Shown here piece by piece: positions 44,326 through 48,497 of a DNA stretch of 64,000 nt (within the stretch, counting starts at the first letter, position 1; each line of letters opens with the position of its first letter). The translations under genes were made by a program, and so were the position numbers. The notes below the pieces were generated by a model. The model worked only from the letters and a program-made list of their open reading frames with translations, was not told where the DNA came from and did no database searches. The stretch lies in NCBI RefSeq assembly GCF_001485535.1, contig NZ_BCMZ01000001.1:186001-250000 (forward strand). Direction: 5' to 3'. The DNA comes from Halobacterium sp. CBA1132 (GTDB lineage: Archaea; Halobacteriota; Halobacteria; Halobacteriales; Halobacteriaceae).

Positions 44326-45093
44326 ATGGACGAGCCGGTTCTCCTCACGGGTGCCGCGGGGCGCGTCGGGCAGGCAATCCTCGACGGCATCGGCGACGAC
44401 TACGACTGGCGGCTGTTCGACCGCGAACCCCCCACCGGGGACACCGACCACGAGGTCGTCGTCGGGGACGTCACCGACGAGGACGCCGTCCGCGAAGCCG
44501 TCGCTGGCGTCGGCGCCGTCGTCCACCTCGCGGGCGACCCGCGTCCCGAAGCGCCGTGGGAGAGCGTCCTCCGGAACAACATCGACGGGGCGCAGACCAT
44601 TCTCGAAACCGCCGTCGAGGAGGACGTCGAGAAGTTCGTGTTCGCGTCCTCGAACCACGCCGTCGGCCACTACGAGACCGACCGCAAGCCCGACCTCTAC
44701 CGCGCGGACGACGACTTCCGCCTCGACGGCGAGGAACTCCCGCGCCCCAGCAACCTCTACGGCGTCTCGAAGGCCGCCGGTGAGACGCTCGGCCGGTACT
44801 ACCACGACGAACACGACCTCTCGTTCGTCGCCGTCCGCATCGGCAACCTCACCGAGGGTCACCCGCCCATCGACTACGAGCGCGGGCAAGCGATGTGGCT
44901 CTCCCACCGCGACTGCGCGCACCTCTTCGACTGCTGTCTGTCCGCCGACTACGACTACGAAATCGTCTACGGCATCTCGGACAACGACCGGAAGTACTAC
45001 AGCCTGGAGCCCGCCCGCGAGGTCTTGGGTTACGACCCGCAGGACAACTCTGCGGAGTGGGACGGCGACGAACGGGTCACCGACGCGGAGTAG
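44326..45093 (+). CDS. NAD-dependent epimerase/dehydratase (uronate dehydrogenase-like)
   Basis: The 255-residue extended SDR protein has the NAD motif LLTGAAGRVGQAI, 'VVHLAGDPRPEAPWESVLRNNIDG', 'FVFASSNHAVGHYE' and the catalytic 'NLYGVSKAAGETL' (YxxxK). The pattern SSNHAVG is characteristic of uronate dehydrogenases and close relatives, which oxidise hexuronic acids. The C-terminal 45 residues are repeated just downstream in damaged form. The ATG giving MDEPVLLTG is preferred over an upstream GTG. Confidence 0.85.
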   Translation: MDEPVLLTGAAGRVGQAILDGIGDDYDWRLFDREPPTGDTDHEVVVGDVTDEDAVREAVAGVGAVVHLAGDPRPEAPWESVLRNNIDGAQTILETAVEEDVEKFVFASSNHAVGHYETDRKPDLYRADDDFRLDGEELPRPSNLYGVSKAAGETLGRYYHDEHDLSFVAVRIGNLTEGHPPIDYERGQAMWLSHRDCAHLFDCCLSADYDYEIVYGISDNDRKYYSLEPAREVLGYDPQDNSAEWDGDERVTDAE

Positions 45094-45116
45094 TTCGGCT
45101 TTTTCTCCTCGACCGG

Positions 45117-45303
45117 CTACGAAATCGTCTACGGCATCCTCGCGAGCGGAGCGAGCGAGGGCTCGACAGGCGAGCGAAGCGAGCCTGTCGGTGTCTCGGA
45201 CAACGACCGGAAGTACTACAGCCTGGAGCCCGCCCGCGAAGTGCTGGGCTACGACCCGCGGGACAACTCCGCGGAGTGGGACGGCGACGAGCAGGTCGCC
45301 TGA
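45117..45303 (+). pseudogene. Duplicated 3' end of the epimerase gene carrying an inserted palindrome pair
   Basis: The sequence repeats codons for YEIVYGI, then SDNDRKYYSLEPAREVLGY and DPRDNSAEWDGDEQVA, about 95% identical in DNA to the end of the preceding gene, and ends in its own stop. Between 'YGI' and 'SDND', 57 bases were inserted that keep the frame (LASGASEGSTGERSEPVGV). Synonymous differences suggest a paralog's tail rather than a very recent copy. It has no start and no catalytic part. Confidence 0.82.
45138..45190. repeat. Pair of GNA-loop palindromes inserted in coding sequence
   Basis: The first palindrome has arms CCTCGC and GCGAGG around GAGCGGAGCGA; the second has arms CGACAGGC and GCCTGTCG around GAGCGAAGCGA. 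Both are perfect. The inserted segment is 57 bases (about 45139-45195), a multiple of three, with TC present at both ends. Confidence 0.9.
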
Positions 45304-47900: not shown

Positions 47901-48497
47901 TACGTTCCCTTACTCGGTCCACTGCTAAGAACTTCGTGCCCGATTACCCCCACGCCGGTGACTTCGCAGTCGCTCGCAGCCGTGACGTCCAGAGAACTTG
48001 CGTCCGGACGGAGTCCGCGCGAGCGACGTGAGGCGCGAAGCGCCTCAGGATGTGCGAACGGTGAGCGAAGCGAACCGTGAGCAGCGAGCGCGGGCCCGTT
48101 GGACGTGACGAACGTAGTGAGGAACGTCTCGACGGCGACTTGAACTCGGAGAGACGGTCGCTCCCTGCGGTCGCGCTGCGACTCACGGGTTCAAATCTCC
48201 TAACGGTAACTACGGACCTGCACGACGCGAGAGCCACAGAGGTCTCTCGTGGTCGTGGCAACGGTAGAAGTTACGTCCGGACGGAGTCCGCGTGAACGAA
48301 GTGAACGCGGGCACGTCCGGGCGTTTTGAGCGAGCGCTAGCGAGTGAAAAACGCCCGGACGGAGATTTGAACGTCGTGAGACGGTCGCCTCACTCCGTTC
48401 GGCGCTGCGACTCACGGGTTCAAATCTCCTGACGTTATCACGGCGTCACGCCGTGAGCGACACGAGCGTCGCTCACGGGCGTAGTGTGAAGAGAGAA
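47901..48497 (-). repeat. Gene-free block of palindromes and T-arm copies downstream of tRNA-Arg
   Basis: No gene was found in these 597 bases. On the tRNA strand, two partial tRNA-Arg 3' copies (48351-48372 and the degenerate 48132-48144) are each preceded by an antisense T-arm (GGGTTCAAATCTCC on the plus strand at 48416-48429 and 48187-48200). Further palindromes with the family core lie at 48058-48078 (ACGGT/ACCGT), 48102-48128 (GACGT/ACGTC, nested GA pairs), 48288-48310 (CCGCGT/ACGCGG) and 48315-48360 (13-base arms GTCCGGGCGTTTT/AAAACGCCCGGAC). Simple ones, CACGGCG/CGCCGTG and GAGCGAC/GTCGCTC, lie at 48439-48476. Confidence 0.88.

Follow-up and report, generated by a model that had tools for sequence, protein, structure and literature searches.

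The window, a 64,000-nt stretch of the 3.01-Mb genome of Halobacterium sp. CBA1132 (G000), contains an NAD-dependent epimerase/dehydratase gene whose last part is present twice (Table 1). The epimerase tail at 44970-45081 is repeated at 45189-45300 with 90% identity over 112 nt, and a second repeat matches 44952-44976 with 45114-45138 at 96% identity. The intact, empty-form tail (T1) lies 219 nt upstream of the copy that is filled by a pair of palindromes (T2). As the first-pass annotation of this DNA had described, the downstream repeat holds exactly 57 extra bases with two perfect stems, the empty and filled forms can be compared as GGCATC/TCGG, and the added length is a multiple of three and free of stops. 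The placement of these bases at 45139-45195 was nearly right, with the family consensus shifting the borders to 45137-45193 (TCCTCGC...CGGTG). Because the consensus sets the element there, the TC at both junctions, which could have been taken for a target duplication, reflects placement ambiguity, and no duplication is seen. The linker between the tails is homologous among Halobacterium species and drifts between genera. The downstream tail copy has no ATG, GTG, or TTG in its own frame, and in 3/5 Halobacterium genomes its frame is shifted relative to the gene, the spacing between the tails not being a multiple of three; T2 is therefore treated as untranslated, with no protein evident.

Table 1. 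Features of the epimerase locus and its second gene tail in the window
Feature	Position	Strand	Remark
NAD-dependent epimerase/dehydratase gene (PF01370), 255 aa	44326..45093	+	Pfam E 1.6e-25
T1, tail copy at the epimerase gene's own end; empty site GGCA^TCTCGG	about 44974 (site)	+	Empty in all parsed relatives
New C-terminal codons (xDAE*) and linker between T1 and T2	45082..45113	+	
T2a, left part of the second gene-tail copy, ending in CGGCA (target flank)	45114..45136	+	
57-nt double-hairpin element (T...CGGTG)	45137..45193	+	Borders from family consensus
Hairpin 1, CCTCGC-GAGCGGAGCGA-GCGAGG	45138..45160	+	
Hairpin 2, CGACAGGC-GAGCGAAGCGA-GCCTGTCG	45164..45190	+	
T2b, remainder of the second tail, which has the native-type stop and 3' context	45194..45303	+	Held similar to T1 via concerted evolution

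The element consists of two hairpins that form a defined, dispersed unit; the stems covary strongly, and the loops are constant across copies. A full copy of 57 nt reads T-(6-bp stem)-GCT-(8-bp stem)-GTG, with GAGCGNAGCGA as both loops. Each loop contains a GCGNAGC mini-hairpin between GA/GA steps, which are conserved in 68/72 and 70/72 cases and may form sheared pairs. GC-GNA-GC is an extraordinarily stable DNA mini-hairpin (PMC4686876). Such GNA-loop mini-hairpins are known from chemistry and aptamers, and here the motif forms the core conserved in a naturally occurring element. The outer GC pair inside the loop covaries with its partner to AT, with the flanking GA/GA kept. Among aligned rows that were partly chosen for pairing, 97.8% of the paired cells are complementary versus 79.9% in shuffles, double-sided changes number 225 versus 65, and covariation is 0.539 versus 0.058 to 0.099 when the pairing is slid; 14 of the 18 proposed pairs change on both sides. 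Because these rows were filtered for complementary stems, the fair test is an unfiltered one, in which contexts were found by the conserved parts alone and three free stem positions were scored. In this test, 58 of 67 contexts were fully complementary at all three positions, with about 1 expected.

An order-wide search with the filled site returned many unrelated loci, with matches covering just the 57-mer. A family census used the element's second half as the pattern and the reversed pattern as the control. The pattern was found in 96 of the 392 sampled Halobacteriales genomes, with up to 23 matches per genome, and the control gave 0 matches in every genome; the recurrence of the 57-mer at unrelated loci, with the backwards control silent everywhere, indicates that the palindrome pair is not due to chance. 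None of the 312 other genomes of the phylum matched the pattern. Two Haloarcula plasmids carry the element, whereas it was absent from the phage records searched, and no viral contig searched contained the exact pattern. A simple count of the core in the window genome gave 78 sites versus 39 for the control, which is weak on its own. Some copies are arranged head to tail with a spacing of 57 nt, and neighboring copies can differ in sequence (L308). The open-access literature, searched also for the exact core sequence, yielded no description of this element, which is apparently undescribed.

Other palindromic repeats were also observed. At 48314-48361 of the window lies a palindrome with a 14-bp stem and a 20-nt center rich in GAGCG/AGCGAG motifs, which is probably another composite hairpin. 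A 246-nt nested-palindrome block of the same genome (L153; G000:C1:513600-514950) stands where a relative (L216) has 8 nt, and intergenic regions of G000 hold many similar composite blocks. At L179, positions 523 to 738, a tandem duplication in the form of a perfect 124-nt direct repeat (spacing, 92 nt) contains a hairpin with the loop of the 57-nt element. Apparent rearrangement boundaries between G000 and G011 (L151 and L154 versus L216/L217) coincide with these palindromic repeats, and GGTTCAAATCC-like inverted segments, resembling the tRNA T-arm, recur in intergenic palindromes (L163, L172, L196, and L198).

Insertion of the element is precise, leaves no target duplication, and occurs 3' of sites resembling the element's own 3' end, CGGYG. 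Another filled and empty pair, of the kind that the first-pass annotation had proposed to align, allows a clean test. In a radical-SAM gene of one genus, 28 genomes align to the joined flanks with no gap, and two genomes have exactly 57 nt more at the same site, so that the joined flanks equal the empty site; this second gene bears out the earlier view that the palindrome pair was inserted as a unit. At most one base is ambiguous at this site, which leaves no room for a target duplication. One genome has a 48-nt insertion here, with the second loop shortened, and MoeA holds shortened remnants in frame, which suggests that the element decays by small deletions in this gene. A two-base target preference, TC, as had been considered, is not supported; instead, the 5' flank CGG(C/G)(G/A) predominates at 47 independent sites, and CGGCG itself occurs at 15. 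This flank is of the same pentamer type as the element's own 3' end, and it belongs to the target, because the empty site of the epimerase gene already holds CGGCA. The similarity between target and end may also arise from microhomology-driven insertion.

Within enzyme genes, the element is retained in frame and always in one acidic reading frame, of the VSGSEATGGSSDERSESDG type. Sixteen copies at 13 independent gene sites, with open frames and coding composition on both sides, all use one strand and one frame, for which the random expectation is about 5e-10. The host genes include those for a GST, a large helicase, MoeA, a class-I glutamine amidotransferase, phosphomannomutase, biotin ligase, LarA, a histidine kinase, and hydantoinase B, and the insertions fall in or between conserved Pfam domains. 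The GST copy corresponds to a clean 19-residue gap relative to the solved GST 6gzf. Since one acidic frame is used even though the window copy is open in all six frames, selection on the protein is indicated, and insertions in other frames would be removed by it. Two more apparent in-gene copies in other frames (L263 and L282) were set aside, as their reading frames looked weak or spurious on inspection. The class-I glutamine amidotransferase carries the element at an identical or equivalent loop in genomes that belong to three families (L253, L260, and L338).

The palindrome pair is best explained as a copy of a non-autonomous, palindromic 57-nt element that belongs to Halobacteriales (probability, about 0.82). 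Its moving form would be single-stranded hairpin DNA, which an HUH-type nickase acting in trans may cut and join after CGGYG-like pentamers, with IS200/IS605-like or IS91-like logic. The lack of target duplication, the hairpins on one strand, the target that is like the element's own 3' end, and the head-to-tail arrays are consistent with a reaction of the HUH type on single strands, and the similarity of the CGG(C/G)(G/A) flank to the CGGYG end is shared with IS91/Helitron-like rolling-circle elements. The HUH-type step is nevertheless put at about one in three, because no Y1 or TnpB partner emerged from direct tests. No shared ends with an autonomous Y1/TnpB element were detected, as element-like hairpins flanked none of 17 Y1 and 30 TnpB loci, except that in G117 an IS200-type Y1 transposase gene (L413; G117:C2:540032-540352) is found about 1 kb away from the locus with the duplicated tail. 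These results make it doubtful that the element derives from an IS200/IS605-type transposon of which it keeps only the termini, and that it is moved by the Y1 transposase of that transposon, even though its two hairpins, its insertion without duplication, and its one-sided target preference agree with such an origin and a haloarchaeal palindromic element (PATE) is known to shrink to a 52-bp terminal-only form (PMC3119063). Two carriers also argue against it, namely, G061, with 15 pattern matches and no Y1 match, and G146, with 6 pattern matches and neither the Y1 nor the TnpB family. The PATEs of Haloquadratum walsbyi, which are transposase-free, have palindromes near both ends, and cause no target duplication (PMC3119063), are the nearest haloarchaeal elements, sharing the near-terminal palindromes and the lack of duplication. 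Unlike the PATEs, the element described here is found in frame inside genes and is present in a genome without Y1 and TnpB.

In three Halobacterium species, the element of the epimerase tail is identical at 57/57 positions, whereas the gene bodies differ at 13 to 14% of fourfold sites; the chance of such identity is about 2-4e-4 per species pair, and thus the element is constrained or exchanged. This identity, together with a very stable predicted RNA fold (-32.7 kcal/mol; z, -3.3), is also what would be expected of a host-selected RNA or DNA hairpin, such as a signal for processing or termination in the 3' UTR, that was copied by recombination and is not a mobile element. Such a role as the whole explanation is improbable in view of the many copies in frame inside enzyme domains and the precise 57-nt insertion at an unrelated target, and a search of the element against Rfam gave no match. 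For the non-autonomous element, spread between species by homologous recombination is possible.

The layout of T1, linker, T2a, element, and T2b is found in 11 genomes of three families. It is present in 5/13 Halobacterium species and in four genomes of another family (G079, G117, G174, and G208); Halosimplex salinum has the layout with an extra nested insert, Halobellus rarus has it with the element's second loop shortened, and G117 carries the filled tail twice, in tandem. Being common to three families, the epimerase-tail insertion is old. The locus, earlier considered the cleanest evidence in the window of movement or insertion, thus does not record a recent jump, and it is the rest of the family that provides evidence for movement. 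In 11/11 genomes, the element is confined to the downstream tail and never lies in the gene proper, and all 80 parsed haloarchaeal epimerase gene ends lack the insert and have exactly two residues in its place, which indicates that the empty form is ancestral. The opposite case, which the first-pass annotation had named as the one that would speak against it, namely, an ancestral insert-bearing tail from which the clean gene end arose by palindrome deletion, would explain why T2 keeps the native-type stop and 3' flank while T1 has new C-terminal codons and a linker, and it is very improbable given these 80 empty ends and an element that is dispersed, with empty sites elsewhere.

At this locus, Halobacterium sp. 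KA-4, the nearest named relative, equals the window genome minus the 219-nt unit. On a gene tree of 13 rows, the layout requires at least four gains or losses, two of which are forced by well-supported branches; therefore, repeated loss or transfer of the layout must have occurred. Over 93 nt, T1 and T2 of the same genome have a mean identity of 94%, compared with 82% among the T1s and 81% among the T2s of different genomes, and an R-to-P change in LEPAREV that is private to the window genome is present in both tails. The simplest reading of this pattern is that gene conversion between T1 and T2 keeps the tails alike, which would hold both to the host's own version. The clean upstream tail now serves the epimerase gene, and the filled tail stays as a 3' spare. 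The epimerase-tail element has the same codon phase and strand as the in-gene copies elsewhere (1 in 6 by chance), a hint that it may have entered the tail while the tail was coding. The two-tail cassette could even be a maintained system, in which the element is costly in a real gene end and kept only behind a duplicate clean tail, and in which tail gene conversion and cross-species recombination spread the cassette as a gene-end homing element; we consider this rather unlikely.

Several known classes of short repeats share features with the element. Fungal mitochondrial double-hairpin elements consist of two adjacent hairpins with variable stems and differ from the haloarchaeal element in genome, size, and sequence. 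Assignment to the MITEs was rejected, as the ends (T...CGGYG) are not inverted copies of each other and the joined flanks equal the empty sites, so that there is no target-site duplication. REP/REPIN sequences, which carry GTAG or CGTC tags, are short hairpins that are dispersed and often occur in pairs (PMC3733652). The element resembles them in being short, dispersed, and often paired, but no invariant GTAG or CGTC tag is present in 67 aligned copies, and it differs in being not only extragenic, in combining free stems with a fixed loop, and in occurring in some carriers that lack Y1 genes. Rickettsia palindromic elements (RPEs) are short palindromic repeats found in frame in unrelated protein genes (PMC10969869). 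By this description, the element resembles RPEs in how it works, without known kinship, with in-frame insertion at 13 independent sites in unrelated protein genes. RPEs are about 100 to 150 bp long, in contrast to 57 nt, and the haloarchaeal element is further distinguished by its two covarying hairpins, fixed GAGCGNAGCGA loops, archaeal host, and CGGYG-like target flank.

To our knowledge, palindromic elements that lie in frame in protein genes have been described mainly in Rickettsia and its relatives, and the element of Halobacteriales is a second, apparently unrelated case, in archaea. Its fixed GNA mini-hairpin loop and freely covarying stems also make it a strong natural case of an unusual hairpin under selection. 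The many empty and filled orthologous sites, together with the workable genetics of Haloferax and Halobacterium, would make both the movement of the element and its tolerance by proteins testable. The element may also account for some of the acidic peptide insertions in haloarchaeal enzymes.
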